From the NCBI RefSeq assembly GCF_002234535.1, contig NZ_CP022521.1:3906001-3970000 (forward strand): a DNA stretch of 64,000 nucleotides. The letters run 5' to 3'. The stretch's first letter is position 1. Each line of letters opens with the position of its first letter. Positions 11,119 to 43,286 of the stretch are shown here, piece by piece. The position numbers and the translations under genes were made by a program. Below the pieces are notes generated by a model. The model ran no database searches. It was not told the origin of the DNA and saw only the letters and a program-made list of their open reading frames with translations. The stretch is from Actinoalloteichus hoggarensis (lineage in GTDB: Bacteria > Actinomycetota > Actinomycetes > Mycobacteriales > Pseudonocardiaceae).

Positions 11119-11119
11119 G

Positions 11120-11590
11120 TCAGCCTCCCGCCCGAGACACGGCGGCGGGAAGGGGACGCGGCCCCGGCGGCGTGTACTCCACCAGCGCCGCACGGAGTTC
11201 GCTCGGCACCCTGGCGGGCGCCGTGGCCGCGTTCGGCCCCCGCATGCAGGCGATGCGCTGACGACCCCGCGCCACCAGATGCTCCTGCCCGTCCGCCAGG
11301 TGCACGTAGTCGAACACGAACTGGATCTGGGTCTGGGTCAGCTCCTCCAGCCGCATGCGCACCGCCAGCTCGTCGAAGGCGGTGATCTCGGCGAAGAACT
11401 CGCACTCCGCCTTGAGCGTGAACAGCTTGAGGTCGCCTTGGAGCTCGGCCAGCACCCCCGGCGCCTTCTCCATGAGGAACAACTCGCGGCAACGGCCCTG
11501 CCAGCGCAGATAGTTCACGTAGTAGACGTTGCCGACCAGGTTGGTCTCCTCGAAGCCCACGACGTGACGGATCTCGTAGTACCCGGCCAT
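11120..11590 (-). CDS. Enediyne hot-dog thioesterase (E10/TEBC)
   Basis: A 156-residue single hot-dog thioesterase of the CalE7/SgcE10 family. The opening EIRHVVGFEETNLVGNVYY and WQGRCRELFLMEKAPGV are diagnostic; the Asn and Arg of these blocks line the active site, and the family lacks the usual acidic nucleophile. It releases the nascent polyene from the PKSE ACP as a conjugated polyene such as 1,3,5,7,9,11,13-pentadecaheptaene. One base separates the PKSE stop from its ATG, and GAGGGGAG lies inside the PKSE tail, so the two are tightly coupled. Confidence 0.95.
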   Translation of the reverse strand: MAGYYEIRHVVGFEETNLVGNVYYVNYLRWQGRCRELFLMEKAPGVLAELQGDLKLFTLKAECEFFAEITAFDELAVRMRLEELTQTQIQFVFDYVHLADGQEHLVARGRQRIACMRGPNAATAPARVPSELRAALVEYTPPGPRPLPAAVSRAGG

Positions 11591-11591
11591 G

Positions 11592-14500
11592 TCATCTCCC
11601 CTCTCCTACGAGTACGGCGAAGACCGTCGGAACGGGACGCCCCTCGACGGTGGTCACCCAGGTTCCGACGCGGGCTCGTCCCGCCGAGAACACCGTCCAG
11701 CCGTCGGGGTGGACCCGGTCCACCGTGAGGGTGATCGCCGCGGTCCCCGCCTTCCTGGCGCACTCCACCGCGGCCCACACCCGGGTGCTCGCGACCGCCC
11801 GGTCCTCCCCCGCCTCGGCGGCCGCGAGATCACGGACCGGCAGCAGCTCCGCGCCGAGCAGTCCCGCCCAGTCCGCCTCGGGCCGGTCGACGGCGGGCTC
11901 CACGTCACAGCCCAGCGGGCCCGCGCCCGCGACGACCATGGTCAGGCCCGCGCCGTGGGAGGCCGACATCTCCAACGGTGCGCTCGACTCCGACCGAGCC
12001 TGCCGACGTCCCGCGGCGGGAGCGGTCTCGGCGGGCGCGGACTCGATCTCCGGGCGGCCGTCGGGTCGGTGGTGGACCCGCGCTCGTCGGCCCAGTGCCC
12101 GGCTCACGGCCAGCTCGGTCTGCTCGCGTCGCCCGACGTCCCGGCCGGGTCCCCCGCTCGGCGGGTCCGGCTCGACGACCGTCGAGGGCGCCGATCCCAG
12201 GACCCGTTCGAGGCTGCGTTCCAGGTGCGGGCCGAGCAGGGCGGGCGCCCAGGGACCGGTGCCGTCGCGTCGGGCGACCGCGCGCAGGACCAGGCCCTCC
12301 CAGCGTTCGACGAGCACGCCGTGCGGGTCGCGCAGGTCGAGGTCGTAGGTGTGGCTGTCGCCGTCCTGTGACCGTTCGCGGGCGTCGAGCACCACGTACT
12401 CCGGCGTCGCCGCGGCGGGATCGGCGAGATGCAGTCGCTCGATGCGCTCCGGCAGCAGGGTGGCGTCGGGCACGCAGCACTGGAGAGCGTGCATCGCGGC
12501 GTCCCTGGTGCCGGGGTCGGCGAGCAGGAGTCGCTGCGGCAGGAACTCGGCGAACCAGGGTGCCGTCGGCCGGGTGGACAGCTCGGCGACCGCGTGCCGG
12601 GCGGCGGCCCGCCGATAACGCAGGAGCCGCTGGAATCGTCTGCCCTGGAACAGGACGTCGCCGTACAGCTCGGTGTCCGGGTCGAGCGGCACCGCGGGCA
12701 GCTCGTCCGCCCTCGGCGCGCGGTCGACCGGCCGATCGCCTCGCGGGAGCCGCAGGCGCGCCCGGAAGTGGTCCGCGCCGAATCCGGTCTCCTCGCTGCG
12801 GATCACCACGTCGACCGTCTCGGCGTCGACGACCAGGCCGGCCAGCCGCACGGTCGTCGTCCCGTCCGGCCGGACGACCACCGGGCGGAGGAACTCGGCG
12901 TCGTGGAGCACCGGCGTCGGCGTGTCGCCGAGGAGGACGGCGGCGACCTGTGCCATGGCCTCCATCCCGACCACGGCGGGCAGCAGCAGATCCCCGGCCA
13001 GGAGGTGGTCGGCGAGGTAGGGGTCGCTGCCCGCGGACAGGGTCGTCTCGGTGACCAGCTCGACTCCCGGGTAGTGCACGAGGACCCGATCGACGAAGCG
13101 CAGCAGCGGCGGCTCGACCCGTTCCACGGCCAGCGTCGGCAGACCCGACATCCGGCCGCCGATCACCACGACCGGCCCGGCGTCGGGATCGGCGAGGACC
13201 TGGCGCAGCATCGCGATGCCGTCCTCGGCGGGCACGGCGGTGACGCCCTCCCGCCGCAGGGCCTCCACGACGCCGAGTCGTTCGCCCATTCCCGCGCCGG
13301 ACCACACCGACCACTCCAGGGCGAGGGCGCGGGCGCGGGGATGCTCCCGCTGGAAACGCACGGTCAGCTCGGTCATCCAGTCGTTGGCCGTCGCGTAGTG
13401 TGCCTCGCCGCGCAGCCCCGCCCGACCGATGACACTGCCGAAGGTGAGCAGCAGTCGGAGTCGGTCGGGGTCCACGGCGGCGAGGACGGCACGCAGTCCC
13501 GCCACCTTCGGGGCGAGCGTCGCGCGGAACTCCTCCTCGGTGAGCCCGGCCAGCGACGACGGCTCGTTCCGGCCCGCGCCGTGCAGGACGGCGGTGACCG
13601 GACCGAGGTCCTGCACGGCCCGGCCGACGGCGGCGGCGACCTCCTCGGCGGAGGTCACGTCGGCACGTTCGTACCGGTGGCGAACGCCCTTGGCCGTCAG
13701 GCGCGCGAGGTTGGCCGCGAGTTCGGCGTCGGTGTCCGGGTCGGAGCGGCCGAGCAGGACCAGCGCGGCCGAGGAGTCCTCCGCCAGGGCCAGCGCGCAC
13801 TCGGCGGTGATGCCCTTGCCACCGCCGGTGACCAGCAGGACGTCGGCGGGCCCGAGTGCCCCGGCGGCCGCGGTGTCGGCGGCGCGGGCGGCGGACGGGC
13901 GGACGGGGCGGGCGCGCAGCACCGGCACCCGACGCGTGCCGTCGGCGTCGAAGCGCACCTCGGCGAAGCCGGTGGTGGCCGCGACCTCGGTGCGGACTCG
14001 ACTCACGGCTCGTTCGAGGTCGGCGGGCGCGACGGGTGCGACGTCGGGCAGTTCCACGATCGTCGTGGGCACCGACGGCGCCTCCAGGTGCAGCGTCTTG
14101 GCCAGTCCCGAGGCGCCGAACCGATGCTGGACCACGACCAGCCGCGTGCCGGCCGGGCGGCCGAGCACGTCACGGCTCGCCGCCAGCAGCAGGGCGAGGT
14201 CCTGATCGTCGCAGCGCTCGGGCAGGCACAGCAGCACGCCGTCGCCCAGACCGGCGTGGGCGAGGGCGTCGCCCAGCGGCGCCGCCAGCGGATGATCCGA
14301 GGGCGCGTGCACCGCCCAGTCGCCCGGACTCGTCGCGCCCGCCGCGGGCGGACGCCCGATCGGAGCGGGTTCCGCGACGTGGTCGACGGTGAAGGCACGC
14401 ACCCAGGGACCTGCACCCGCGGCCTCGTCGACGACGGTCTCCTCGGCGTGTGCCGTCTCGGCGAGATCGTCGATGAGGGCGGCCAGCTCGCCGAGCCGCA

Positions 14501-17500
14501 CGGTCGCGAAGCTCGGCGCCGAGGTCAGCGGCGGCCTGCCCAGGTCGCGTACGGCCTGGTTCACGATCTGGCCGACGGTGATGGAGCTGAGGTGCAGGTC
14601 GTCCAGCGGATGGGTGTCGGCGGTGATCGTGGCGGACGGCAGCTCGGCGCGCGCGGCGGCCAGCTCGCGAAGCAGCTCCAGAGTGGAGCGTGCCGAGTCG
14701 GCGTGAGCGGGAGGTGCCGACCCGTTCACCGCGATGAGCGGGTCGGCGGCCGTCGCCTCGGCCGCCACGACGGGCGCGACCGTGCCGACGTCGATCGCCG
14801 GGGCCTGCTCGCACGGACTGGCCAGGAACGTCATGGGTCCGTCGATCGAGAGCGGGCGGATCACCCGATGTGTGAACAGCGTCTCGGTGCGCACCGGGGC
14901 ACCGAGCACGAACGCGGCGGCGACCACCGACAGCAGCGGCCGGAGCGAATCCGACTCGGTGTCCACGGCGAACGCGGGCGTCCCCGGCGTGATCTCGGCG
15001 ACCAGCCCGGTCAGGACGCGACCGGGACCGACCTCGATCAGCAGGTCCGCGTCGGCGGCGACCCGCACGGCGGCCTGGTGGAAGCGCACCGGTCGGACGA
15101 CCTGGTCGCGCAGCAGCGTGGCGAGGTCCTCGGCGGCGTCCAGGGGCCCGCCGGTGACGGTGGAGACGACGCGGCGCCGCACCGGCTGGAGGGCGAGGGT
15201 CTCCAGGTGCGCGGCCAGCGCCCTCGAGGCGGGGGCCACCAACGGCGAGTGGAAGGCGTGGGAGACGGACAGCCGGGTGGCGCCGTGTCCGGCGGCCCGT
15301 GCCTTGGCGCAGACGCGGTCCACGGCCGTCGCCGGGCCGGAGACGACCGTCTGCCGGGGCCCGTTGTAGCCTGCGACGACCACGTCGTCCTCGTCGGCGA
15401 CGAGCAGTGCCGTCTCCTCACCGGTCGCCGTCAGGCTCGCCATCCCGCCGCCCGTGCGGCTCGCGCTCGCCATGGCCTTTCCCCGCGCGGCGGCGAGCGC
15501 GCCGAGATCGGGTGCGGTCAGGGCGCCTGCCCAGTGCAGCGCGGTCAGTTCACCGAGACTGTGCCCGACGGCGGCGGTGGCCTCGATGCCCAGATCACGC
15601 AGCACGCGCAGTCCCGCGAGGGACCCCGCCACGATGCGCGGCTGGGCCACCTGCGTGGCGATCGGATCTCCGTCCTCGGCCGGCCCGGCGGCGGCGAAGG
15701 CCTCGGCGGCCGAGCCGAATCGACGACGCAGCACGCCCGCACCACCGCGCCCGGAGCCCTGACCGGGGAACAGGAAGGAGATCCTCGGCTCGTCCGAGGG
15801 CTCGCCGAGGAAGATGCCGTCGGTGACGGAGTGGATCCGAGTGCGTCCATCGTCGACGGCGGCCAGCAGGAGGCCCAGCCTGCGCTCGGCGTCGGCGGGC
15901 GAGTCGGCCACCACCGCCGCGCGAACGGGGCCGTCGGCCGCCTCCGTGGCGAGGGCGTAGGCCAGGTCGGCCAGCTCGGCGTACGCCAGCCTCCCGGTCA
16001 GCTCGCGCAGCCGGGCGAGCCGTTCGCGCACGTCGGCGAGGTCGGCTCCGGCCACCAGCAGCAGCTCCACGTCCTGTCGCGCCGCGACCGTCGCCAGGGT
16101 GGCCGCGTCGACGGCGGTGCGGCGTGGGGTGCCCGGCGGCTGCTCGACGGTGAGGTGCGTGTTGATCCCCCCGAATCCCATGGCCGAGACGCCCGCGCGG
16201 ACCGGCTGGTCCTCCGGCCACGCGCGGGCGTCTCGGGGGACGTAGACGGCGGCGTCGGGAGTGAGCAGGCTCGGATGCGGGTCGCGGTGTCCCGTCGCGG
16301 GCGGGATCACCTGGTGGTGCACGGCGAGAGTCGCCTTGATCAATCCGACGACTCCCGCCGCGGCCTTGGTGTGGCCGAGGTTGCCCTTGATGCTGCTGAC
16401 CGCCGCGGGGGGCGCGTCGGGCGCCGCCGCGTGCCGGGCGGTGGACAGCGCCGTCAGCTCCGTGGCGTCGCCGAGCGCGGTGCCGGTGCCGTGTCCTTCG
16501 AAGTAGGACACCGTCTCCACGCCGTAGCCCGCCCGGCCGTAGGCACGGGCCAGCGCACGGCGGTGGCCGCTCGCCTCGGGGCGGGTGATGCCGCCCTTGC
16601 CGTCGGAGGAGATCCCCCATCCCGCGATGGACGCGTAGATCCGTCTGTCCTGCGCGACCGCGTCGGCCTCCCGCATCAGCACCAGGACGCCCGCGCCCTC
16701 CCCCGGCCAGAAGCCGTTGGAGTCCCGGTCGTAGACCACCATCTCCCCGGTGGCCAGCGCACCGGTCTTGGCGAATCCGATGACCTCGAACGGGTCGATC
16801 GACAGATCGACCCCGCCCGCCAGAGCCACGTCCAGATCCTCGTCGACGAGCGCCTTGGCGGCGGTGGCGATCGAGAGCAGCGACGACGAGCAGGCCCCGT
16901 CCACGATGTAGCCGCCACCACCGAGGTCGAAGTGGTTGCAGATCCGTCCGGCGATGGTGTTGGCCAGGCCGCCTGCGAGGGAGTCCTCGTCCACGGCGGG
17001 GAACGGCGCCTTGTACCGGGTCTCGAGGTCGCCCAGGAACGCGGCGGTCTCCGCGTCGGACCAGCCCTTGTCCGCGAGCGCCGCGGCGAGGGTGCGCCGA
17101 ACGTAGGGCCATCGCAGCCGCAGGGTGTTGGCGCGGGAGAACTCCCCGGTCAGGCTGTTGCCGAGCACCACCCCGGTCGTCGCCGTCGGAAGACCCTCGC
17201 CCCGGGGGAAACCGGCGTCGGCCAGGGCACGAGCCGCCACGTCGAGGGCGAGCCAATGGGTGAGGTCGGTGGAACGGTAGGTACTGCCCGCCACCTGATA
17301 CGCCACGCGGTCGAATTCGAAATCGCGCAGCACCGCCGCCATGGTGGAGTAGAAGCGATCGGGCGCCTCGGGATCAGGCGACCAGTAGTCGGCGCGGTTC
17401 ATCCGCTCGTTCGGCAGCCGTCGGAAGGCGCGACGGCCCGCGAGTACGTTCTCCCACAGTTCATCGGGCGTCGCGGCATCGGGATAGCGGAGCCCGATTC

Positions 17501-17528
17501 CCACGATTGCGATTCGCTCGCTGCTCAT
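11592..17528 (-). CDS. pksE: Enediyne iterative type I polyketide synthase (PKSE)
   Basis: A 1978-residue enediyne PKS building the polyene precursor of the warhead. Domain order is KS (1-460: Cys213 in DGACSSSL, His346 in HGTGT, His386 in NLGHTKAAAG), AT (585-900: Ser657 in GHSLGE, AFHSPLV at 758-764), ACP (965-1025: Ser981/982 in DDLHLSSITVG), KR (1225-1470: VTGGGKGI, Tyr1378 in HYATAND), DH (1485-1750: His1508 in YLADHLLAG) and a C-terminal phosphopantetheinyl transferase (1800-1978: Asp1875/Glu1877 in GCDVEP, Trp1918 to Lys1926). Every catalytic residue I looked for is present, and the length is normal for the family. The ATG at 17528 has GGTGGGAAG upstream and matches the family start MSSERIAIVG; the open frame upstream of it is not PKS-like. 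Confidence 0.97.
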   Translation of the reverse strand: MSSERIAIVGIGLRYPDAATPDELWENVLAGRRAFRRLPNERMNRADYWSPDPEAPDRFYSTMAAVLRDFEFDRVAYQVAGSTYRSTDLTHWLALDVAARALADAGFPRGEGLPTATTGVVLGNSLTGEFSRANTLRLRWPYVRRTLAAALADKGWSDAETAAFLGDLETRYKAPFPAVDEDSLAGGLANTIAGRICNHFDLGGGGYIVDGACSSSLLSIATAAKALVDEDLDVALAGGVDLSIDPFEVIGFAKTGALATGEMVVYDRDSNGFWPGEGAGVLVLMREADAVAQDRRIYASIAGWGISSDGKGGITRPEASGHRRALARAYGRAGYGVETVSYFEGHGTGTALGDATELTALSTARHAAAPDAPPAAVSSIKGNLGHTKAAAGVVGLIKATLAVHHQVIPPATGHRDPHPSLLTPDAAVYVPRDARAWPEDQPVRAGVSAMGFGGINTHLTVEQPPGTPRRTAVDAATLATVAARQDVELLLVAGADLADVRERLARLRELTGRLAYAELADLAYALATEAADGPVRAAVVADSPADAERRLGLLLAAVDDGRTRIHSVTDGIFLGEPSDEPRISFLFPGQGSGRGGAGVLRRRFGSAAEAFAAAGPAEDGDPIATQVAQPRIVAGSLAGLRVLRDLGIEATAAVGHSLGELTALHWAGALTAPDLGALAAARGKAMASASRTGGGMASLTATGEETALLVADEDDVVVAGYNGPRQTVVSGPATAVDRVCAKARAAGHGATRLSVSHAFHSPLVAPASRALAAHLETLALQPVRRRVVSTVTGGPLDAAEDLATLLRDQVVRPVRFHQAAVRVAADADLLIEVGPGRVLTGLVAEITPGTPAFAVDTESDSLRPLLSVVAAAFVLGAPVRTETLFTHRVIRPLSIDGPMTFLASPCEQAPAIDVGTVAPVVAAEATAADPLIAVNGSAPPAHADSARSTLELLRELAAARAELPSATITADTHPLDDLHLSSITVGQIVNQAVRDLGRPPLTSAPSFATVRLGELAALIDDLAETAHAEETVVDEAAGAGPWVRAFTVDHVAEPAPIGRPPAAGATSPGDWAVHAPSDHPLAAPLGDALAHAGLGDGVLLCLPERCDDQDLALLLAASRDVLGRPAGTRLVVVQHRFGASGLAKTLHLEAPSVPTTIVELPDVAPVAPADLERAVSRVRTEVAATTGFAEVRFDADGTRRVPVLRARPVRPSAARAADTAAAGALGPADVLLVTGGGKGITAECALALAEDSSAALVLLGRSDPDTDAELAANLARLTAKGVRHRYERADVTSAEEVAAAVGRAVQDLGPVTAVLHGAGRNEPSSLAGLTEEEFRATLAPKVAGLRAVLAAVDPDRLRLLLTFGSVIGRAGLRGEAHYATANDWMTELTVRFQREHPRARALALEWSVWSGAGMGERLGVVEALRREGVTAVPAEDGIAMLRQVLADPDAGPVVVIGGRMSGLPTLAVERVEPPLLRFVDRVLVHYPGVELVTETTLSAGSDPYLADHLLAGDLLLPAVVGMEAMAQVAAVLLGDTPTPVLHDAEFLRPVVVRPDGTTTVRLAGLVVDAETVDVVIRSEETGFGADHFRARLRLPRGDRPVDRAPRADELPAVPLDPDTELYGDVLFQGRRFQRLLRYRRAAARHAVAELSTRPTAPWFAEFLPQRLLLADPGTRDAAMHALQCCVPDATLLPERIERLHLADPAAATPEYVVLDARERSQDGDSHTYDLDLRDPHGVLVERWEGLVLRAVARRDGTGPWAPALLGPHLERSLERVLGSAPSTVVEPDPPSGGPGRDVGRREQTELAVSRALGRRARVHHRPDGRPEIESAPAETAPAAGRRQARSESSAPLEMSASHGAGLTMVVAGAGPLGCDVEPAVDRPEADWAGLLGAELLPVRDLAAAEAGEDRAVASTRVWAAVECARKAGTAAITLTVDRVHPDGWTVFSAGRARVGTWVTTVEGRPVPTVFAVLVGEGR

Positions 17529-18772
17529 ACTTCCCACCGTCTCTGGAGCTGAGCCTCCGATTACGGAACGGGCAGGACATCGCGGCTCTGCGCGATCCGG
17601 CAGCCGTAACCGGGTCGGCGTCAAGGATGTCGCTGATTTACCGGACGCCGGCTCGGTGTGGCACACTTCCGCCGCCGTGATCCGATCGTGCAGGAGTCGC
17701 GCCGCCGTTGTCTTCTCCGATTGTGCGGCGGCCGGGAATGACATTCCATAACACTGTGACGACCGTTCCGCCCGGGGGGAATCCACGGCTGGGCGGTCGG
17801 GGCGGCCACTCGACGACCGACGCCCCGACAGCGCAGGCCGGGCCGCCGGAGCCGCCTGTCGCGCCGGTCACTCCCCGCTCACTTTCCCAGGATCCCACTC
17901 GACCATTCGAATGAAAGAACAGCGGTCCGGTCAGTGCGCATGCTGGAAGAAGATGCCGCGCCGGAACCGCAACATGCTGGAAAGAGCCGCGGATCCGACG
18001 CTGCGAGCTGCCCGCCTTGGAGGAGGCCCGCCGATGGCGATCACCGACCCTGTCCACCGATCGTACGGCATGATCACCCGGCTGACTCAGTCGTCGATGC
18101 CGTCGGCGGCGGTGGTCCCAGGACCGCTCCGGAGGGCACGAGCGCGGTGTCGTCTCGGCAGGCTCGACCGCGATCCGGACGGTCGATCGGCCGCCTGCGC
18201 GTCGGGAGGCGCGGAACATTCCTGTGTTCGAGGGGCGGCGGCGACGTGTCCGCCCTGGTCGGAACGCTCAGCGGGCATCCGCGCCCGCAGGGGGCCCGGC
18301 GTGGCCGCGGGACGTCGTGATCACGATGCCGTCGGGCACACCCGGCCTCGGCGGGCCGACCGCCGGATCGCCGTGTACGTGCGCAGGCGCAGGCAGGAAG
18401 GCGACCACGGCGCCCGGTCGTCGCCGGCGGAGGACGTCCCGCGAGACTCAGGCGCGCGCAATTCGCTCTCGGGCGCCGACGGCACGGCACGGCGAGGAAC
18501 GACGGTGCTTGATCGGTACCGCAATCGGCCGCAAAGCCGAATCCCGTCCGACCAATCGGATCACTGCTATCGGTACACATCATCGGCGATATCCGACCAA
18601 TGAGCCGATCGAAGGCCCGGCCGATACCGCCATTCGACGGCATCCCCGAAGAAGGAGAATGTTGACAATTCAATGAGAAAGTCTGAAAATCGAAATCGGC
18701 ACCCGGCTCTTGCGACGATCAGGTCCGTCACCAACACAGCCGAGTGACCTCACCATGGCATTGGGAGGGGCT
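17529..18772. other. Large divergent regulatory gap between PKSE and second UnbL
   Basis: This is the longest non-coding stretch in the window (1244 bases). It is less GC-rich than its surroundings near 17630-17990 and 18530-18770. It must hold the PKSE promoter (reading left), but I found no convincing consensus for it; a TTGACG near 17620 on the minus strand lacks a good -10. The 10-mer TCCGACCAAT occurs twice, at 18547-18556 and 18592-18601, 45 bases apart, and could be a regulator site. An open frame at 17911-18603 has no ribosome site and no family likeness. Confidence 0.5.
18662..18690 (+). promoter_or_regulatory. Candidate sigma-70-type promoter for the second UnbL gene
   Basis: A perfect -35 TTGACA (18662-18667) stands 17 bases before GAAAAT (18685-18690, 4 of 6 matches to TATAAT). 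This predicts a transcript start near 18697 and a leader of about 75 bases. Just upstream, AAGGAG precedes a five-codon frame at 18659-18676, probably by chance. Confidence 0.55.
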
Positions 18773-19852
18773 ATGCCTGCGATTCTCGGCACCTTGCGCC
18801 GACTCATACTGGCACCGTCGTTGGACGAGGTGACGTTCGCCCGTCGCGGTTTTCCCGGCCCGCGAACGAAGGACACCGGCCGACTGGAGGCGATCCCGGC
18901 GGCCGTGGTCTGTGGATTCGAGTGGGCGGTAGAGACACCGAGAATCAGGGAGATCGAGCGCAGACTGGAGCTGGTGGACACGGACATGCGGGGCTTCGCC
19001 TACGAAGGCGCCGCGATGGCGCTCACCATCCTGGACGCCACCTCGGGCGGACACCGCACCCGAGACCTGTTGAGCGGCCCGGGAGCGCCGCACCTCCTGC
19101 TCTCCTACATCGGGGTCGGATTCGCCATGGCGCGCCTGCCTCGGCCGCTGTGGCGACGCGTACTCCCCGATCTGACCGACTCCTCGCCGTATCACCCGAC
19201 GATGAGCTGGCTGGTGGTGGACGGCTACGGGTTCGATCTCGCCTACTTCCACCAGAAGCGATGGGTCGAGCGGCAGCAGGTTCCCGCCGCATACCCGTGG
19301 CAGGGTGCGCCCGACTACTTCCCGAGGGCCGTGGACCAGGGAATCGGCCGGGCGCTGTGGTTCATCCATAGCGGACGAACCCGCGACGTCGCCGCCGCCG
19401 TCGCCCGCTTCGCCACGACCCGACACGCCGACCTGTGGAGCGGAGTCGGGCTCGCCGCCGCCTTCGCGGGCGGCAGCACCCCCACCGCGCTGGCGGAGCT
19501 GCGAACGCAGGCCGGACCTCACGGGCTCGAACTCGGTCTCGGCGCGGTCTTCGCCACGCAGGCGCGCTCGATGGCGGGGGCGGTCCCGCCGCACACCCAC
19601 CCCGCGCTCACCGCCTTCGCGGGCGTCACCGCACCGGAGGCGCTGCGGATCGTACGCACGACGGCCGGAGTCGACCCGACCTCGGCGACACCCGCTTACG
19701 AAGCGTGGCGACAGCGAATCCGCGATCGGCTCGCCGCGACGAACGCGGCGGGCACGGCACAGACGGACGGATCCGGGGCCCACCCGCCACCGAGCGACGT
19801 CCCCGCCCCCAGAGCGGTCGCCGACGACGAACCTCCGGACTCCTCGAGTTGA
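18773..19852 (+). CDS. Second UnbL-like DUF1702 enediyne protein (paralogue)
   Basis: A 359-residue DUF1702 protein, paralogous to the UnbL at 25663-26634. The shared blocks are RGFAYEGAAM, YIGVGFAMAR (YIGVGWAMAR there), WLVVDGYGF, AYFH and DQGIGRALWF. DUF1702/E3 proteins are signature enediyne-core genes of unsettled biochemistry. This copy has a longer, Pro/Ala-rich C-terminal tail. The ATG at 18773 is chosen because GGGAGG lies 4 nt upstream; an ATG at 18755 has no ribosome site. It stands alone on the plus strand with its own likely promoter and is followed by the AraC gene 322 bases on. Confidence 0.87.
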   Translation: MPAILGTLRRLILAPSLDEVTFARRGFPGPRTKDTGRLEAIPAAVVCGFEWAVETPRIREIERRLELVDTDMRGFAYEGAAMALTILDATSGGHRTRDLLSGPGAPHLLLSYIGVGFAMARLPRPLWRRVLPDLTDSSPYHPTMSWLVVDGYGFDLAYFHQKRWVERQQVPAAYPWQGAPDYFPRAVDQGIGRALWFIHSGRTRDVAAAVARFATTRHADLWSGVGLAAAFAGGSTPTALAELRTQAGPHGLELGLGAVFATQARSMAGAVPPHTHPALTAFAGVTAPEALRIVRTTAGVDPTSATPAYEAWRQRIRDRLAATNAAGTAQTDGSGAHPPPSDVPAPRAVADDEPPDSSS

Positions 19853-33892: not shown

Positions 33893-36238
33893 GTGAGAGC
33901 AGTGGGCAAGCGCAGCTGGTGGGTCCCCGTGCTGACCGCGATGGCGGTCACGGCGACCCTGCCCGCGCCGGCGACGGCGACAGGCGTCGAGACGGCGTCG
34001 TCCGCCGCCGCCTCGGCCGACGAGGCGATCAGGGACCCGATCCCCGAGGACCCGATCCAGTCCCGCCTCGGACTGGTCCTCGAGGAGTACGTGCGACTCC
34101 CGGCGACGGAGGCGACGCCGCCCGCGACCGACCCCCGGTTGATCCGACACAACAGGATCAACTTCATCGGCGAGGTGCCCGACGGGACGGGGCGCCACTA
34201 CGTCCCCGATCTCAACGGGCCGCTCTACCTCATCGACGAGGGACGCGAGCACCTCTACCTGGACTTCTCCGAGCGTTTCGAGCACTTCTTCTCCGGCCGA
34301 GGCATGGGCAGCGGCTTCGGCTTCGTCACCTTCCACCCGGAGTTCGCCGACAACGGCCGCTTCTACACGGTGCACAGCGAGAACGAGAAGGCGATCGAGA
34401 GCGAGGAGCCCACCTACCCGAATCAGCCGAACTCGGTCGTGCAGAGCGTCGTCACCGAGTGGACCGCCCACGATCCCGCCGCCGACGAGTTCGCCGGAAC
34501 GCGACGGGAGATCTTCCGCTTCGGCTTCGCCACCTACATCCACGCCGTCCAGCAGATCGACTTCAACACCACCGCGAAGCCGGGCGACGAGGACTACGGC
34601 CTGCTGTACCTCGCCGTCGGCGACGGCGGACTCGGCGTCCGCTCCGACGTCGCGCAGGAGATGGACAACCCCGCGGGCAAGATCCTGCGCATCGACCCGG
34701 CGGGCACCGACGGCCCGAACGGCCGCTACGGCATTCCCGAGTCCAATCCGTTCGTCGACACCCCCGGCGCGCTCGGCGAGATCTACGCGATCGGGATGCG
34801 CGACCCGCACCGGTTCACCTGGGACCCCGAGGGCGACAACGCGATGTACCTCGGCCACATCGGCCAGCACGCCATCGAGGCGGTGTACGAGGTGCGGGCG
34901 GGCGACGACTTCGGCTGGAGCAGGCGCGAGGGCGACTACGAGTACCGCCGCGAGGAACAGTGCCATCTCTTCCCGCTGCCCGAGAACGACGCCGAGTTCG
35001 GCTATGTCTATCCGGTGGCCGCCTACGATCACGATCCGCCCGCCAACTGGCCCTGCGACTCCGACAGCGGACACGCGATCTCCGGCGGCCAGGTGTATCG
35101 CGGAACGGACCTGCCCCGACTGCGCGGCAAGTACGTCTTCGGTGACCTGGTCGACGGCAAGGTCTTCTACACCGAGGTCGACGAGATGAGGCGCGGCGAG
35201 CAGCGGGCGCCGCTGCACGAACTCCAGCTCTTCGACACCGACGGCAACCGGAAGAAGATGACGGACTTCGTCGGTGAGGGCCGCGTCGACCTGCGCTTCG
35301 GCATCGACTCGGACCGCCACCTCTACCTGCTCGCCAAGTCCAACGGCATGATCTGGCGGGTCGTCGACACGAAGCAGGGACCCGGCTCGGAGGTCACCGA
35401 CCGCGTGAGGCGGAACCTGGTGGCCCACTACGACTTCGAGAACCCGTTCGCCGTCGACGGCACGCGGGAGAGCGACCTCGGCTCGTCGAACACCCTGCTG
35501 ACGCTGATCAACGGCGGAGTGGACATGCGCGTCGCCGACGGCGCCTTCCCCGGCAGCAACAACGCGCTACAGGTCAGGCAGGTCGACCCGGAGAACCCGG
35601 GCAACGACGACTGGAAGGCAGGCGTCTGGGACGACGGACCCGACGGTGTGGCCTCCTTCGACGCCTTCAACGGCACCGACGGCGCGACGGTCATGGGCTG
35701 GTTCAAGATGACCGGCGAGAACCCCGCACCCGACTCCAACACCACCGACCCCGACGATCGCTACAACGCGGTCGGCCTGGCGGGCATCCTCTCCGGAGGC
35801 TCCGACGGGCACGAGGTCCGCGCGTTGCTGGAGTTGATCGAGGTGGACGGCGAGCTGCGGCTCGTCGCGCTGGGCAGGCGCATCGACGGCGGAGCCTCGC
35901 AGACCTTCGCCGCCCGCCAGGACTGGCGTGAGCTGCTCCCGAGGGACGAGTGGGTGCACCTGGCCGCGACGTTCGACTACACCACCGGCGAGATGGCCCT
36001 CTACCGCAATGGAAGGCCGCTGCGCGGCTTCTACACGAATCCCGGCGATCCGTGGGAGGTCGACGGAACGGGCGCCTCCGCGACCAACCCGCGCGGGCTC
36101 AAGATCGGCGGCAGCTTCCCGCGGAACGACCGCGAGCGCAATCCGTGCGACTGTCGGATGGACTCGCTGATGTTCCTGGACACGGCCGCGTCCGGCGCCA
36201 CGATCGCGCAGCAGTACCGACGCTTCCTGCACCACTGA
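33893..36238 (+). CDS. Secreted PQQ-type sugar dehydrogenase (GSDH) fused to LamG domain
   Basis: A 781-residue secreted protein: signal peptide (VPVLTAMAVTATLPAPATA, about 10-30), a six-bladed GSDH/sorbosone dehydrogenase propeller (about 50-500), and a C-terminal laminin-G/concanavalin-like jelly roll (about 515-781: LVAHYDFENPF and WVHLAATFDYTTGEMALYRN). Propeller motifs include YLAVGDGGLG, DNPAGKILRIDP and YAIGMRDPHRFTWD. It probably oxidises a sugar outside the cell with PQQ, the LamG domain binding glycan. The GTG at 33893 is preceded by AGGGA; a GTG at 33902 with GGAG at 8 nt is equally possible. It ends at a strong shared terminator. Confidence 0.88.
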   Translation: MRAVGKRSWWVPVLTAMAVTATLPAPATATGVETASSAAASADEAIRDPIPEDPIQSRLGLVLEEYVRLPATEATPPATDPRLIRHNRINFIGEVPDGTGRHYVPDLNGPLYLIDEGREHLYLDFSERFEHFFSGRGMGSGFGFVTFHPEFADNGRFYTVHSENEKAIESEEPTYPNQPNSVVQSVVTEWTAHDPAADEFAGTRREIFRFGFATYIHAVQQIDFNTTAKPGDEDYGLLYLAVGDGGLGVRSDVAQEMDNPAGKILRIDPAGTDGPNGRYGIPESNPFVDTPGALGEIYAIGMRDPHRFTWDPEGDNAMYLGHIGQHAIEAVYEVRAGDDFGWSRREGDYEYRREEQCHLFPLPENDAEFGYVYPVAAYDHDPPANWPCDSDSGHAISGGQVYRGTDLPRLRGKYVFGDLVDGKVFYTEVDEMRRGEQRAPLHELQLFDTDGNRKKMTDFVGEGRVDLRFGIDSDRHLYLLAKSNGMIWRVVDTKQGPGSEVTDRVRRNLVAHYDFENPFAVDGTRESDLGSSNTLLTLINGGVDMRVADGAFPGSNNALQVRQVDPENPGNDDWKAGVWDDGPDGVASFDAFNGTDGATVMGWFKMTGENPAPDSNTTDPDDRYNAVGLAGILSGGSDGHEVRALLELIEVDGELRLVALGRRIDGGASQTFAARQDWRELLPRDEWVHLAATFDYTTGEMALYRNGRPLRGFYTNPGDPWEVDGTGASATNPRGLKIGGSFPRNDRERNPCDCRMDSLMFLDTAASGATIAQQYRRFLHH

Positions 36239-36349: not shown

Positions 36350-36601
36350 CTAGACGGCCGACTCCTTCGTGAAGTCGACCACGACGAGCGAGCCCCGGTG
36401 GACCAGCGTGCCAGGGCGGGGCACCTGTGCGGTGACGACCCAGACTCCCGGCCAGGCCCGCGAGATCAGCGGCGGTCCGTCGAGATCGGTGCCCGCCACC
36501 ACCAGCCCGACCTCGTGGCCCATCGCGATCGCCATCCGCACGGTCCGACCGACGAGACGGGGCACCTCGACGCGGACGGCGTCGCGGCTCGGTGGTGTCA
36601 T
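36350..36601 (-). CDS. Small stand-alone PASTA-domain protein
   Basis: An 83-residue protein that is almost only one PASTA domain: VEVPRLVGRTVRMAIAMG opens it, and VTAQVPRPGTLVHRGS then LVVVDF close it. PASTA modules normally sit outside the cell on penicillin-binding proteins and Ser/Thr kinases and bind muropeptide or beta-lactam-like ligands. Here there is no signal peptide or membrane segment, so the product should be cytosolic. GGGAGG lies 6 nt before the ATG, and the family match makes this short gene credible. It is divergent from the proteasome beta gene with 369 bases between. Confidence 0.8.
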   Translation of the reverse strand: MTPPSRDAVRVEVPRLVGRTVRMAIAMGHEVGLVVAGTDLDGPPLISRAWPGVWVVTAQVPRPGTLVHRGSLVVVDFTKESAV

Positions 36602-36970
36602 GGGCGACCTCCCGAGATGAGACTCCCCCGAATCCGCCGCGCGAGGCAGCGACCATCTCGGGTAATCCGTCCCGCCTTCCGTTGCTCCCGCCGGCGCCGC
36701 CGTCGGTCCTCGGCTGGGAACGGCGTGGGCTGACGGCCTCACGGCGACGGCGTCCGGCGACGGCGTCCGGGCGGAACCGACGACCGGAGGCCGGAGATCA
36801 CGACGACGCATCGGCGCACCGCCCATGCGGTACGGACCGTGCCCCGAGCCTGCCGAGCGACGCCGCCCTGGTGTCCGTCGGGTCGCGGCGATACGGTGAT
36901 CACGGTCGTCGGCACGACCGTGTCCGCACGGTGCATGCCGGCCGCGGAGCGACGAACGAGAGGACGGCTC
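36602..36970. other. Divergent region between PASTA and proteasome beta genes
   Basis: This 369-base region holds the start regions of both genes. The proteasome frame is open 5' to 36839, but that extension is not proteasome-like. No clear promoter consensus. Confidence 0.4.
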
Positions 36971-37765
36971 GTGACGCTGAGGGCACCGCAGGCTTCCACG
37001 AACCCGCACGCCGCGCTGATGTCGATCGGCGGCTCGTCCTTCTACCAGCTCGTCCGGGAACACGCGCCGCAGACGCTCCCCCAGTACCAGGCAGGCGGCG
37101 CCGACCCGGAGTACCGCCACGGCACCACCGTGCTCGCGCTGCACTACCGCGACGGCGTGATCATGGCGGGCGACCGCAGGGCGACGATGGGGAATCTGAT
37201 CGCCCAGCGCGACCTGCGCAAGGTCGAGCCCGCCGACAGCCATTCGGGCATCGCCTTCGCGGGCGCCGTCGGCGTCGCCATTCGCATGGTGGCGTTGTTC
37301 CAGGTGGAGCTCCGGCATTACGAGAAGATCGAGGGCGTGGAGCTCAGCCTGCCCGCCAAGGTCAATCGCATCTCGGTGATGATGCGCGGGAATCTGCCGC
37401 AGGCCATGCAGGGGCTCGCCGTGGTGCCGCTGTTCGCCGGCTGGGATCATCACGAGGGGGCGGCTCGGATCTTCACCTTCGACATCGCCGGATCGACTTC
37501 GGAGAAGACCGACTTCGGCGGCGCGGGCTCCGGCAGCCAGTTCGCGCTGAGTTCGCTCAAGAAGCTGTACCGCCCCGGCCTGTCTCGCGACGAGGCGGTG
37601 CGGATCATGCTGGAGTCGCTCGTGGACGCCGCCGACGACGACACGGCCACCGGCGGGCCGGACGCGACTCACGGGCGGTATCCCGTCGTCGCCGCGATCA
37701 CCGAGGGCGGCTACTCGGAGATCGCCGAGGACGAGCTGGCCACGCTCGCCTCCCCCCGCGACTGA
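36971..37765 (+). CDS. prcB: Orphan 20S proteasome beta subunit with Val49 substitution
   Basis: A 264-residue PrcB-type precursor with a 51-residue propeptide ending HG, then mature Thr1 (HGTTVLAL; precursor Thr52). Catalytic Asp17 (GDRRAT) and Lys33 (DLRKV) are in exact register, and GSGSQFA and DAADDDTATGGPD are conserved, so it should be active. Mature residue 49 is Val and residue 45 is Phe (IAFAGAVGVA); actinobacterial PrcB normally has Ala49. GTG at 36971 follows AGAGG by about 7-8 nt. No prcA, pup, dop, pafA or ARC/Mpa gene is nearby, so it is probably a second copy. SalI, the salinosporamide self-resistance subunit, carries A49V; a resistance role here is inference. Confidence 0.92.
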   Translation: MTLRAPQASTNPHAALMSIGGSSFYQLVREHAPQTLPQYQAGGADPEYRHGTTVLALHYRDGVIMAGDRRATMGNLIAQRDLRKVEPADSHSGIAFAGAVGVAIRMVALFQVELRHYEKIEGVELSLPAKVNRISVMMRGNLPQAMQGLAVVPLFAGWDHHEGAARIFTFDIAGSTSEKTDFGGAGSGSQFALSSLKKLYRPGLSRDEAVRIMLESLVDAADDDTATGGPDATHGRYPVVAAITEGGYSEIAEDELATLASPRD

Positions 37766-38067
37766 TCCCGGCGACGGGGCGGGGCCCGGCCGCGGGCAGC
37801 CGACGTGGCATCGAGGTCCGCGTCATCGCCGACACCAGGCAGGCGATGCCGTCGAGCGCGATCGATGCGGCCGGGTCGAACAGGCGCGTGGGCGGCCGGC
37901 GTCGGACGCGCCGAGCCGGGCGTCCCGGCCGGAGTCTTCCGGTGTGCGTCGATGCGGGGCACACACGCGACGTGCGGTCGTGCCCGCCGCCGGGCCTGCC
38001 CGGTCACGAAGCGTCAGTCCCACTCTTCCGGATGATCCTCCTTGACCTCAAGCATTCTTCAGGTTGA
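37766..38067. other. Intergenic upstream of transketolase genes
   Basis: This 302-base gap is GC-rich and featureless until about 38020, then less GC-rich with the inverted repeat described at 38051-38072. Confidence 0.4.
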
Positions 38068-38072: not shown

Positions 38073-38784
38073 GGTCCGCATGAGTGCACCAAACCAGGCC
38101 TCCCACGGCTACGACGATCTCGCCGCGCTGCTCACCCTGATGACGGGGGATGAGAAGCACGATGCCAGCGCCACTTCGACGCTGGACGTCCTCTGGGTGC
38201 TGTACGACCGCATCCTGCGGGTCGCCCCCGACCGAGTCGACGATCCCGACCGCGATCGCTTCCTCCTGTCCAAGGGCCACGGGCCGATGGCGTACTACGC
38301 GGTACTGGCCGCGAAGCACTTCCTTCCCGTGGCCGATCTGCCCGCCTTCGGCGGCTTCGACTCGCCGTTGGGCTACCACCCCGACCGGACCCTCGTTCCC
38401 GGAGTCGAGATCGGCTCCGGCTCGCTCGGGCACGGTCTCGGGCTGGCCGTCGGCACCGCGCTCGGCCTGCGTATGACCGGGCGAGACCGGGCCGCGGTCG
38501 TCGTGCTCGTCGGCGACGCGGAGCTGGAGGAGGGCAGCAACGCCGAGGCGATCCAGGTCGCGGGGCGCCGTCACCTCGGCAACCTGACGACGGTCGTCAT
38601 CGACAACTCCTCCGCCTCGGCCGGGTGGCCGGGCGGCATCGCGGCCCGGTTCGCCGTCGAGGGCTGGTCCACCCGGGACGTCGACGGGCGCGACCACGAC
38701 GCCTTGGAGCGCGCCTTCACCGCCGCGACGGACGACCGGCCGCACGTCGTCGTCGCCCACGTCGACCCCGAGGAGCCCCGATGA
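38068..38784 (+). CDS. Transketolase, N-terminal (TPP-binding) subunit
   Basis: A 238-residue half-transketolase: FLLSKGHGPMAYYAVLA is the TPP/His region, GSGSLGHGLGLAVGTALG the cofactor loop, and VGDAELEEGSNAEAI to VIDNSS the GDG-N-type TPP/Mg motif. Split transketolases use a second polypeptide for the pyrimidine-binding half, encoded next with a 4-base overlap. The ATG at 38068 has only a weak AGG; the ATG at 38080 is the alternative (see promoter entry). Split pairs are common in archaea, anaerobes and secondary-metabolite loci; a dedicated role making a C5 or C7 sugar unit is possible. Confidence 0.88.
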   Translation: MLVRMSAPNQASHGYDDLAALLTLMTGDEKHDASATSTLDVLWVLYDRILRVAPDRVDDPDRDRFLLSKGHGPMAYYAVLAAKHFLPVADLPAFGGFDSPLGYHPDRTLVPGVEIGSGSLGHGLGLAVGTALGLRMTGRDRAAVVVLVGDAELEEGSNAEAIQVAGRRHLGNLTTVVIDNSSASAGWPGGIAARFAVEGWSTRDVDGRDHDALERAFTAATDDRPHVVVAHVDPEEPR

Positions 38785-39713
38785 GTGCCGACACCGCGAC
38801 CACGCGCACCGTGCCGGGCGAGAACCAGCGTGACCGCTTCTACCGGCTGCTGCCGGGACTGCTCGCCGACCAGCCGCGGCTGGTCGCCGTGCTCGCCGAG
38901 ATCAGCGTGAACTACCTGGAGGAGGTACCGCCGTCGATCGCCGACCGCGTCGTGAACGTCGGAATCCGCGAGCAGCTGCTCGTCGGCGCCGCAGGCGGAC
39001 TCGCACTCACCGGTATGCGGCCGATCGTGCACACCTTCGCCGCCTTCCTCGTCGAACGGGCCTGGGAACAGGTCAAACTCGACCTCGGGCATCAGGGCGT
39101 CGGCGCCGTGCTCGTCAGCGCGGGCGCCTCCTACGACTGGCCGGAGGGCGGCGAGACGCATTTCGGACACCGTGACGTGGCGCTCCTCGACACGCTCGAC
39201 GGCTGGACGGTGCACGTGCCGGGTCATCCCGACGAGGCCGAGGCGCTGCTCCGGGCCGCGTTGCCGGGCGACGACCGGGTCTACCTGCGGCTGGCCTCGG
39301 ACAGCAACCGCCTGCCGCGGGACGTGAGCGACGGACGCATGCGGGTGCTGCGGCGGGGCTCCCGAGGCACGGTCATCGCGGTGGGGCCGCTCGCCGACCG
39401 CACACTGGCCGCCACCGAGGGACTCGACGTCACCGTCCTCTACGCGGCCACCGTCCGCCCGTTCGACGCCGAGACGCTGCGCACGACGCTGGACAGCCCG
39501 GACGTGGTGCTCGTCGAGCCCTACCTGCGCGGCACCTCCACCGCCGAGGTGACCGCGGCGCTGCGCGGCCTGCGGCATCGGGTGCTGGGGCTGGGCGTGG
39601 GGCGGAACGAGTCGCGCCGCTACGGCGTTCCCGCCGACCACGATCGCCTGCACGGCATCGACGAGGCCGGGCTGCGCCGGGCGATCACCGGATTCATCAC
39701 CGAGTTCGACTGA
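38781..39713 (+). CDS. Transketolase, C-terminal (pyrimidine-binding) subunit
   Basis: A 310-residue partner of the preceding gene. RVVNVGIREQLLVGAAGGLAL carries the catalytic Glu (about residue 64) that activates TPP. SYDWPEGGETHFGHRDVALL and the C-terminal domain (VAVGPLADRTLAA, VLYAATVRPFD) complete the fold, though it is somewhat compact. The ATG overlaps the previous stop (ATGA), giving stoichiometric translation. Together the two reconstruct one transketolase of about 550 residues, near the shorter DXS-like length. Confidence 0.88.
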   Translation: MSADTATTRTVPGENQRDRFYRLLPGLLADQPRLVAVLAEISVNYLEEVPPSIADRVVNVGIREQLLVGAAGGLALTGMRPIVHTFAAFLVERAWEQVKLDLGHQGVGAVLVSAGASYDWPEGGETHFGHRDVALLDTLDGWTVHVPGHPDEAEALLRAALPGDDRVYLRLASDSNRLPRDVSDGRMRVLRRGSRGTVIAVGPLADRTLAATEGLDVTVLYAATVRPFDAETLRTTLDSPDVVLVEPYLRGTSTAEVTAALRGLRHRVLGLGVGRNESRRYGVPADHDRLHGIDEAGLRRAITGFITEFD

Positions 39714-40486: not shown

Positions 40487-40936
40487 TCAGGCGGACGTCT
40501 CGGCGGCCACCGGCGTCAGGCGGACCACCGCCAACGGGCGGCGCAGCTTCGTCGCGTACTGGCGGTAGAGATCCCGATTCACGCGGTTGACGGCCGCCCA
40601 CAGGCGCGGGTGATCCGGATGGTCGGGCAGGCACTCCTCGGCGACGGCCGCCGTCCGCCACCGCGCGACCTGGACCTCCGATCGCGGTGTGGCCCGCAGA
40701 TTGTGCAGCCAGGCCGGGGCACGCTCCGAACCCCAGTTGGAGGCTACGACGAGGAGGTCCGCTCCGTCTCTCGCGTACACCAGGCACGCCGTCCGCGGCG
40801 CCCCCGTGCGGCGTCCGGTGGTGGTCAGCAGCAGAGTCGGGCGGGTCAGCAGCCGATGGCCCACCCGGCCGTCCGTGCGTCGATAGACCGCCTGATGCGC
40901 CGAGGTGATCCAGTGCAGGACTCGTTGTGCTTTCAC
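40487..40936 (-). CDS. F420-dependent nitroreductase-family (DDN-like) protein
   Basis: A 149-residue split-barrel protein of the deazaflavin-dependent nitroreductase family: PTLLLTTTGRRTGAPRTACL and VASNWGSERAPAWLHNL are hallmark blocks, with VQVARWRTAAVAEE after. Such enzymes use reduced F420 to reduce quinones or activated alkenes. The start is the GTG at 40936 with no ribosome site, but TAGCGT lies 6 bases upstream, which fits a leaderless transcript. Quinone detoxification is a typical role. Confidence 0.88.
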   Translation of the reverse strand: MKAQRVLHWITSAHQAVYRRTDGRVGHRLLTRPTLLLTTTGRRTGAPRTACLVYARDGADLLVVASNWGSERAPAWLHNLRATPRSEVQVARWRTAAVAEECLPDHPDHPRLWAAVNRVNRDLYRQYATKLRRPLAVVRLTPVAAETSA

Positions 40937-41439: not shown

Positions 41440-42264
41440 TCACGACGCCGCCGTCCCGCCCGGCATCACCTCCGCCGTGCCGCCGAACCGGCGCTGCCGC
41501 ACGGTGTAGGTCTGCATCGCGCGCCACAGATGACGGCGATCGAACTCCGGCCACAGCGTGTCCTCGAAGACCAGCTCGGCGTAGGCCGCCTGCCACAGCT
41601 GGAAGTTGCTGATCCGCTGTTCACCGCCGGTGCGCACCAGGAGATCGATCTCGGCCATGTCCGGCTGATACAGATAGCCCGCGAGATCCTGCTCCACCAA
41701 CGCGGCGGGGTCGACCCGCCCCGTGGCGACGTCGACGGCCATCCGCCGGACGGCGTCGAGCAGTTCGGTGCGGCTGCCGTAGTCGAAGCACACCGCGACG
41801 GTCAGCACGTCGTTGTGTCGTGTGAGGTCTTCGGCGGCCTCCAGTTCGGCACGGAGCGCGGGGGCGGCGCGGGTCCGGCGACCCGACCAGCGCACCCGGA
41901 TGCCCTGCTCGTGCCACCGCTCGATGTTGTCGCGCAGGACCTCGTGCAACAGCAGCATGATCCCGTCGACCTCGGCGGCGGGCCGCGCCCAGTTCTCCGT
42001 GGAGAAGGCATAGAGGCTGAGCTGCGCCAGGCCGATCTCGACGGCACCGTCGACGACGTCGACCGTCGCCCGCGAGCCGCCGCGATGCCCGCGTGTCCTG
42101 GCGGCGCCGTGGCTCGCGGCCCAACGACCGTTGCCGTCCATGATGATCGCGACGTGACGCGGCAGCCTGCGCTCCGGAATCCGCGGCGCCCGCGCGCCGG
42201 AGGGATGGGCGGGAGGCGGCAGTGGACGCCGAGGACGCGGCATCGGCTCGACGGGCAGGCTCAC
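41440..42264 (-). CDS. uppS: cis-Prenyltransferase (undecaprenyl diphosphate synthase family)
   Basis: A 274-residue isoprenyl transferase. HVAIIMDGNGRWA places the catalytic Asp at 43, GHRGGSRATVDVV the phosphate loop, LYAFSTENW the next block, and RTGGEQRISNFQLWQ then ELVFEDTLWPEF the C-terminal substrate region. The first 30 residues are a Pro-rich extension. The GTG overlaps the phytoene-synthase-like stop by 4 bases, so the two are co-translated. Housekeeping polyprenyl synthesis usually has no such partner, so this copy may make a specific cis-prenyl chain; product length cannot be read from sequence. Confidence 0.92.
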   Translation of the reverse strand: MSLPVEPMPRPRRPLPPPAHPSGARAPRIPERRLPRHVAIIMDGNGRWAASHGAARTRGHRGGSRATVDVVDGAVEIGLAQLSLYAFSTENWARPAAEVDGIMLLLHEVLRDNIERWHEQGIRVRWSGRRTRAAPALRAELEAAEDLTRHNDVLTVAVCFDYGSRTELLDAVRRMAVDVATGRVDPAALVEQDLAGYLYQPDMAEIDLLVRTGGEQRISNFQLWQAAYAELVFEDTLWPEFDRRHLWRAMQTYTVRQRRFGGTAEVMPGGTAAS

Positions 42265-43286
42265 GGGTTCTCCCCCTCGGTCGGGATGCCGGACGGCTGT
42301 TCGGTGTGTCCGTCGTGCACCGAGGCGAGGTGACGAGATCCGGTTCTCCCGACGTCGCCGCGACCCGGTGCCCCGAGGCGCCCCCGGCCCGCATGCGCCT
42401 GTCCCCGGCCGAGGAGCAGTTGCGGCAGCGCCAGCCGAAGGAGTCGGGCACGGCTCAGCGTGGCTCGATCCCGCAACGCTCTGGCCCCCATCCGGTCCAC
42501 GAGGTCGAGATACTCGGCGTGGATCTCCACCGCCGTCAGCACGAACGGCCGGTATCGACCGGGCAGCAGCGCCACGAGGCCGATCGACTCCCGATGGAGT
42601 CCGCGTGCCCGCCGCACCTGGTGCCGGACCAGCTCGTCCAGGGCGCGGCTGGGCGGACCCCAGCGCAGCATCGTGCGGTCGGCGCCCACCCGCTCCATGT
42701 CCTCGGCCGCCACGTAGACCCGGTCCTGCGGCAGATCCTCGGGGTAGTCGCAGAAGACGTCGATAAGGTGGTGCACCTCGCCCATCAGGGAGGCCAGGCG
42801 CTCGAGTTCCGGGTCCGGGCGGTTCAACAGGCTGACGCCGGCGACGGCGGCGGTCCCGGAGACGCCGCGCAGGAACCGCCGGAGGTCCTCGAAGGTCTGG
42901 AAGCCGGACGAGCCGGTCAGATCCGCCCGGGTCTCCTCCAGGAACCTGCCGAACAGCTCGGGAGGCAGGTCGTGCACCCGACTGGTGTTGATCAGCGCAC
43001 GACGCAGCGGATGTCGGCTCTCACCACGTCTGAGCTCGTCCATCGACGCTGCCGACCAACGACGGAAGGCACGCTCGCGAACGCGGAGCTGTCCGACGTC
43101 GGCGATCCGGTCGCTGGCGGCGAAGAATGCCAGCAGCGCGTGCGCGTGCGGCCGGATCGACGGCGGCAGCAGCAGTCGGGTGGCGAGGTAGGTCGGGCGA
43201 TGCGTGGCATGGACACGCCGACACAACGCATAGGACTCGCGGAGCGCGGGGTCGATGCTCCGCACAGGTGCCATGTGCACCGCCAT
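42261..43286 (-). CDS. Squalene/phytoene synthase-family protein
   Basis: A 341-residue class I prenyl-condensing-fold protein. The first Asp motif is Asp59-Asp63 (SDRIAD) and the second Asp176-Asp180 (DVFCD), followed by YPEDLPQDRVYV, so both metal sites look intact though the flanking sequence diverges from true squalene synthase. The C-terminal 55 residues are Gly/Arg-rich and probably disordered. The ATG at 43286 has GAGGT 8 nt upstream. Members make squalene, phytoene or presqualene diphosphate, and some prenylate aromatic natural products. The tight link to a cis-prenyltransferase points to a dedicated prenyl pathway. Confidence 0.88.
   Translation of the reverse strand: MAVHMAPVRSIDPALRESYALCRRVHATHRPTYLATRLLLPPSIRPHAHALLAFFAASDRIADVGQLRVRERAFRRWSAASMDELRRGESRHPLRRALINTSRVHDLPPELFGRFLEETRADLTGSSGFQTFEDLRRFLRGVSGTAAVAGVSLLNRPDPELERLASLMGEVHHLIDVFCDYPEDLPQDRVYVAAEDMERVGADRTMLRWGPPSRALDELVRHQVRRARGLHRESIGLVALLPGRYRPFVLTAVEIHAEYLDLVDRMGARALRDRATLSRARLLRLALPQLLLGRGQAHAGRGRLGAPGRGDVGRTGSRHLASVHDGHTEQPSGIPTEGENP

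Follow-up and report, generated by a model that had tools for sequence, protein, structure and literature searches.

The window analysed here, a stretch of 64,000 nucleotides of Actinoalloteichus hoggarensis DNA, carries at 36971..37765 (+) a gene for a second proteasome beta subunit, prcB2. Its 264-aa product belongs to PF00227 and is identified as a proteasome beta subunit by its match to the TIGR03690 profile (306.2 bits, cut-off 191.9). Behind a propeptide of 51 aa, the mature protein starts with Thr1 (codon 37124-37126) and retains intact catalytic residues T1, D17 and K33 (mature numbering, as throughout), and its S1 pocket holds Phe45 (codon 37256-37258) and Val49 (codon 37268-37270). 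A preliminary description of this DNA had placed here a proteasome beta reading frame with Asp17, Lys33, Phe45 and Val49, all of which were confirmed on re-reading. In family, propeptide and active site, prcB2 agrees with the housekeeping PrcB of actinobacteria (TIGR03690; structures solved for the relatives 1q5r and 2jay); it differs from it in its orphan position, its F45/V49 pair and its faster evolution.

Translation begins at a GTG codon at 36971, preceded by a ribosome-binding site, GAGAGGAC (36958..36965, +), that occupies the identical position in all three Actinoalloteichus genomes compared, namely that of the window (G000) and two relatives (G001 and G002). Further upstream lies a candidate promoter or operator, GATACGGTGATCACGG (36890..36905, +), which in the alignment is identical in G001 and has two mismatches in G002; a sigma-70 scan found no consensus promoter at these positions.

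Gene neighbourhood and copy number of prcB2

Family searches covered 26 of the 45 genes called in the window; between 27.1 and 52.3 kb, where 19 genes were called, they covered 18. The upstream neighbour of prcB2 (33902..36238, +) encodes a protein with a GSDH and a laminin-G domain and is kept in all three genus genomes. Between the two genes, a 71-aa ORF (36350-36565, -) is kept in G001 (71%) and appears PASTA-like by eye, with no Pfam match at 1e-4. Downstream, a transketolase is split into an N-terminal half, tk1 (38080..38784, +; PF00456), and a C-terminal half, tk2 (38781..39713, +; PF02779 above its cut-off, PF02780 slightly below), both found near prcB2 in 3/3 genus genomes; from conservation, we infer that tk1 starts at 38080 instead of 38068. 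An F420H2-dependent quinone reductase family protein (40487..40936, -) and a squalene/phytoene synthase family protein (42261..43286, -; best match HpnD at 100 bits, under the cut-off of 278.6) follow, each likewise present in all three.

Directly before tk1 stands an imperfect dyad, TTGACCTCAAGCATTCTTCAGGTT (TTGACCTCAA...TTCAGGTT; 38042..38065, +), kept with changes in the three genus genomes. Its pattern, which was derived from these same sequences, matches once in the window and in none of 100 shuffles. We take this dyad to resemble a MerR/SoxR-type operator, which suggests a redox-controlled transketolase. Because the conserved dyad stands immediately before tk1, the tk1-tk2 pair probably has its own promoter, separate from that of prcB2. 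A single prcB2-tk1-tk2 operon was considered, and the dyad speaks against it; sigma-70 and terminator scans gave nothing for or against such an operon.

The genome itself, a single contig of 6,606,717 bases, yielded three matches in a PF00227 search: prcB2, a housekeeping prcB located at 2.775 Mb and, adjoining the latter, a single prcA. Since the sole prcA adjoins the housekeeping prcB, none lies next to prcB2, and no pafA/dop-like match was found within about 1.5 kb on either side, in agreement with the orphan status first described. Around the housekeeping prcB-prcA pair are genes that we take, by resemblance, to be Dop/PafA-like. Thus prcB2 is extra to a complete housekeeping prcB-prcA pair, a redundancy characteristic of a SalI-type subunit, and the single PrcA is the only available partner for its product. 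The housekeeping PrcB reads I45/A49, and its mature part is 51% identical to that of prcB2. The preliminary description had left room for prcB2 being the only prcB of its genome, or for Val49 being common in housekeeping PrcBs of the genus; neither is the case, as the genome search returned a second, housekeeping prcB, and Val49 occurs in 0/3 housekeeping PrcBs (all A49). Indeed, both copies are present in 3/3 genus genomes, with prcB2 reading F45/V49 in every one.

Among these three genomes, dN/dS is 0.22-0.43 for prcB2 and 0.07-0.11 for the housekeeping prcB (gapped columns excluded, the housekeeping frame of G001 having an over-long N-terminus). The gene is therefore constrained by purifying selection, yet evolves faster than its housekeeping counterpart. 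The latter property is what would be expected of an ordinary duplicate under drift, with no function and with F45 and V49 as tolerated pocket variants, and the amino-acid identities among the three genus members (64-85% for prcB2, 91-96% for housekeeping PrcB) fit such drift; however, the dN/dS values, the conserved start region, the intact catalytic residues and the fixation of the identical pair in at least three separate origins, described below, make this explanation very improbable.

The Phe45/Val49 pair and its origins

A survey of PrcBs covered 279 loci with a match, two of which were discarded for insufficient length (L094, a truncated part of the G002 gene, and L208, a fragment), giving 221 distinct mature sequences. 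T1, D17 and K33 are present in all 221. The combination F45+V49 was read in 29 of the 33 PrcBs without an adjoining prcA (meaning none within the fetched locus, loci varying in length) and in 0/188 with one. The latter read I/A in 170 cases, F/A in nine, I/V in six, M/A in two and T/A in one, so that F45 appears in 9/188 and V49 in 6/188, never together. Because each residue occurs singly in prcA-adjoining PrcBs, neither F45 nor V49 alone marks a dedicated resistance gene. The earlier case had rested on Val49, with Phe45 noted; Val49 stands, but its role as sole signature passes to the F45+V49 pair, and Val49 alone was dropped as a marker on account of the six prcA-adjoining PrcBs that carry it. 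The set is non-random, most loci having been obtained by similarity to F45/V49 queries; such bias would favour the pair in housekeeping genes, where none was found despite it. Furthermore, 40 extra PrcBs, hand-picked before their sequences were inspected, all read I/A with prcA alongside (40/40).

Four orphan PrcBs lack the pair and read I/L, V/T (two Streptomyces), V/A (G115) and Y/V (G282). The two Streptomyces orphans (L009 and L056) carry I45/L49 and V45/T49; in human cells, Ala49Thr is a bortezomib-resistance change.

SalI is the characterised duplicated, inhibitor-resistant bacterial proteasome subunit. A single-contig genome of 5,183,331 bases with two PrcBs (G578) was read as Salinispora tropica on the strength of one protein that matches PDB 2q6i over all 283 residues (640 bits), an entry we take to be the S. 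tropica chlorinase SalL; the PrcB about 17 kb from this SalL gene was accordingly read as SalI. It was recovered by querying G578 (two matches) alongside 15 further genomes, and was not among the listed matches in 354 genomes of the G403 family (taken for Micromonosporaceae), a search in which SalI scores below housekeeping subunits. SalI reads F45/V49 and the S. tropica housekeeping PrcB M45/A49, so that the S1-pocket residues Phe45 and Val49 of prcB2 are identical to those of SalI. The resemblance extends further: both are second PrcBs beside a housekeeping one elsewhere in the genome, both lack an adjoining prcA, both keep T1/D17/K33, and the housekeeping subunit carries Ala49 in both genomes. 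Their mature parts are 49% identical. Unlike SalI, prcB2 lies outside any recognised inhibitor cluster, and its resistance is predicted from sequence, whereas that of SalI has been reported, at 30-fold for salinosporamide A in the accessible part of PMC6804068. The available text of PMC6449301 likewise places differences between SalI and the normal subunit at 45 and 49. The residue-45 change is described as of little importance in the excerpts at hand, and one review, also available in part, gives the first change in SalI as Met45Val; the SalI sequence fetched here reads Phe45. The PrcBs of epoxyketone clusters (Epn/TmcC and relatives) resemble prcB2 in being extra beta subunits with a proposed role in self-resistance, but differ in being sited within epoxyketone-type clusters; 9/17 such clusters carry an extra PrcB according to the portion consulted of PMC8988807.

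A family search of 390 genomes found a PrcB match in 384. F45/V49 was read in 15 genomes whose copies group with the window's (G000, G001, G002, G066, G084, G094, G184-G188, G213, G219, G366 and G367) and in eight genomes of genus g30 (G269, G272, G277, G290, G294, G295, G304 and G306). In g30, 18 genomes have two matches; the ten that were read comprise these eight F/V cases, one Y/V (G282), and G317, which has two I/A copies, each with an adjoining prcA. When 14 genomes were re-queried with the housekeeping sequence, 13 returned a housekeeping PrcB (I/A, prcA alongside). In a Crossiella draft (G187; L130, L233), no PrcB other than the F45/V49 copy was found, 27/27 candidates having been scored; its housekeeping prcB may have been lost, or may fall in an assembly gap.

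The relationships of these copies were followed on a tree of 72 rows (30 PrcBs without prcA and 42 with it) selected from 169, with columns 45 and 49 excluded. Copies with F45/V49 occupy four places on the tree: three Nocardia sequences, which nest within the Nocardia housekeeping clade (100/99); six from g30; SalI; and a 17-row group that includes prcB2 (support 86/92, not starred). The F45/V49 label requires four changes on this tree. AU tests rejected a single clade for all 27 F45/V49 rows (p 2.4e-5) and a clade of the window group with Nocardia (p 3.6e-6), and rejected neither the window group with g30 (p 0.051) nor SalI with g30 (p 0.335); these tests are less strict than their p values imply, as the groups were defined after the tree was seen, and SalI is a long branch. 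By these AU results, at least three separate origins of the F45/V49 pair are supported. Common descent with SalI, a question for which the preliminary description had proposed a PrcB tree, does not hold up: a clade of SalI with the 17-row window group was rejected (AU p 0.0017), ruling out prcB2 as a SalI orthologue. From its sequence, prcB2 is a beta subunit of SalI type by convergence, probably tolerant of inhibitors.

Biosynthetic clusters around prcB2 and its relatives

At the prcB2 locus, the family searches (18 of 19 genes between 27.1 and 52.3 kb) pointed to no cluster recognisable as one for a proteasome inhibitor. About 17-27 kb from prcB2, an enediyne-type cassette (9665-19852) comprises an SgcJ/EcaC-family protein (9665-10063, -), a YbgC/FadM-like thioesterase (11120-11590, -), an iterative PKS of 1978 aa (11592-17528, -), a DUF1702 protein (18821-19852, +) and a flavin reductase, all kept in G001. 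This cassette is probably the published "enediyne" cluster of the genus. Left of the window (G000:C1:3876000-3906000; L216, L217) are genes for a ~500-aa condensation-domain protein, an HpaB-2-type hydroxylase and a 90-aa probable carrier protein, and the enediyne cluster may extend past the window's left edge. In G002, which retains prcB2, the 78 kb compared contain no counterpart of the enediyne genes, and the cluster was therefore rejected as a necessary partner of prcB2.

The preliminary description had proposed prcB2 as a candidate gene for self-resistance to a proteasome-directed metabolite that this strain produces. The resistance-type part of that reading is strengthened, as F45/V49 is shared with SalI and has arisen repeatedly; the strain-made metabolite is not supported, there being no inhibitor cluster recognised at the locus, no enediyne genes in the G002 stretch, and several copies in other genera that lie, by gene calls, amid conserved genes with no evident cluster core adjoining. 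Were prcB2 nevertheless to guard strictly against an inhibitor of the strain's own making, the best local source would be the conserved block of split transketolase, F420-dependent reductase and squalene/phytoene-synthase-like enzyme, which is kept around prcB2 in 3/3 genus genomes. We know of no likeness between this block and known proteasome-inhibitor pathways, however, which counts against self-resistance, as does the transketolase pair with its own upstream dyad, for which co-transcription with prcB2 is not required. Moreover, a search of further orphan loci (about 10 kb on each side, g30 and SalI loci excluded) brought up no match to tk1 or tk2. On the favourable side, a "terpene, unknown" cluster is given next after the enediyne one for A. 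fjordicus, A. hymeniacidonis, A. hoggarensis and A. spitiensis in the part of PMC5676828 available, and the squalene/phytoene-synthase-like gene (42261..43286) is perhaps its core, if the published list follows the chromosome.

Besides the terpene-type block adjoining prcB2, the genome search covered condensation domains beyond the locus, with six matches in G000, 16 in G001 and 23 in G002. By length and score, all three appear to share a single large NRPS gene (frames of 3187, 3224 and 3276 aa), which would be the best remote source of a self-directed inhibitor. A literature link between tetramate macrolactams and the proteasome was not among the matches listed, at the level of titles and abstract openings.

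The relatives of prcB2 bear on the same question; for part of the F45/V49 loci, the flanks were assessed from the lengths and N-terminal sequences of their genes, from mutual BLAST and from a small number of family searches. In G084 (L125, 1-10380), PKS, NRPS-type, P450 and thioesterase genes immediately precede the F45/V49 prcB, with a gap of 124 bp, the PKS being recognised solely via a 30% match to the window's PKS; this run is a good candidate for a new proteasome-inhibitor cluster. Such a placement favours self-resistance, whereas the sister locus in G094 has the same ROK-side neighbours as G084 and does not share its NRPS-PKS side. In G219, a large NRPS-like gene follows one of the copies at a distance of about 3.7 kb, and a PKS gene lies about 8.5 kb from the Crossiella copy L130 (G187), likewise in part for L007 and L008; L134 (G185) is without one. 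The copies of Nocardia, g30, G366/G367 and Kibdelosporangium sit amid genes conserved between species, with no evident adjoining cluster core. Some F45/V49 copies are thus near clusters and others are not. We regard strict self-resistance against a product of this strain as unlikely. No report of F45/V49 copies outside clusters was found at the level of titles and abstract openings, which is not proof of absence, as the subscription literature was mostly out of reach.

Proposed role of PrcB2

We favour, at a probability of roughly 0.6, an inhibitor-tolerant spare PrcB that replaces housekeeping PrcB on the single PrcA and whose SalI-like pocket is of separate origin. PrcB2, with its active site intact, would substitute for housekeeping PrcB on PrcA rings; Val49, with neighbouring Phe45, would alter the S1 pocket used by active-site inhibitors; and the resulting mixed or alternative 20S particle would stay active in the presence of proteasome inhibitors. 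On this account, prcB2 would be a resident gene of the genus with its own conserved upstream region, apart from any recognised inhibitor cluster. Sequence, redundancy, the single PrcA, constraint, presence in 3/3 genus genomes and convergence with SalI are established by the data, whereas assembly with PrcA, the altered pocket and the tolerance of inhibitors are predictions.

The convergence might instead serve specificity, as Ala49Val in SalI also shifts substrate specificity, and this reported effect of the same change makes a specialised proteasome the main rival: F45/V49 would have been selected for an altered cleavage preference, in a subunit exchange like that of the immunoproteasome, with inhibitor tolerance as a by-product. 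The accessible part of PMC4177604 describes an effect of SalI Ala49Val on both substrate specificity and prosequence cleavage, and the resident copies amid conserved genes in Actinoalloteichus, the three Nocardia, Crossiella and genus g30, as well as the purifying selection on prcB2 within the window's genus, would suit such a role. However, SalI, the sole characterised bearer of the pair, is reported to confer resistance from within an inhibitor cluster, and positions 45 and 49 of human beta5 are also mutated in bortezomib- and marizomib-resistant cell lines, as far as the text of PMC9000344 was available; we regard the specialised proteasome as rather unlikely.

If the F45/V49 copies are indeed resistant, the pair would be a two-residue marker readable from any genome: inside a cluster it would point to a producer, and outside a cluster to exposure to proteasome inhibitors. 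A wider proposal, which we offer tentatively and at somewhat short of even odds, is that a resident, cluster-independent, inhibitor-tolerant proteasome has evolved at least three times in Actinobacteria through prcB duplication and Phe45/Val49, with the inhibitors of neighbours as a common selective force, and that the pair could serve as a marker both for new inhibitor clusters and for a proteasome resistome. Natural convergence would then reveal a pocket solution stable across long evolution, at positions that are mutated in resistant human cells (PMC9000344, in part).

The six PrcBs that combine I45/V49 with an adjoining prcA (L082, L136, L186, L191, L192 and L194) include one from Nocardia jinanensis and three from genus g65. 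For these housekeeping proteasomes, the Val49 residue makes a natural inhibitor tolerance possible.
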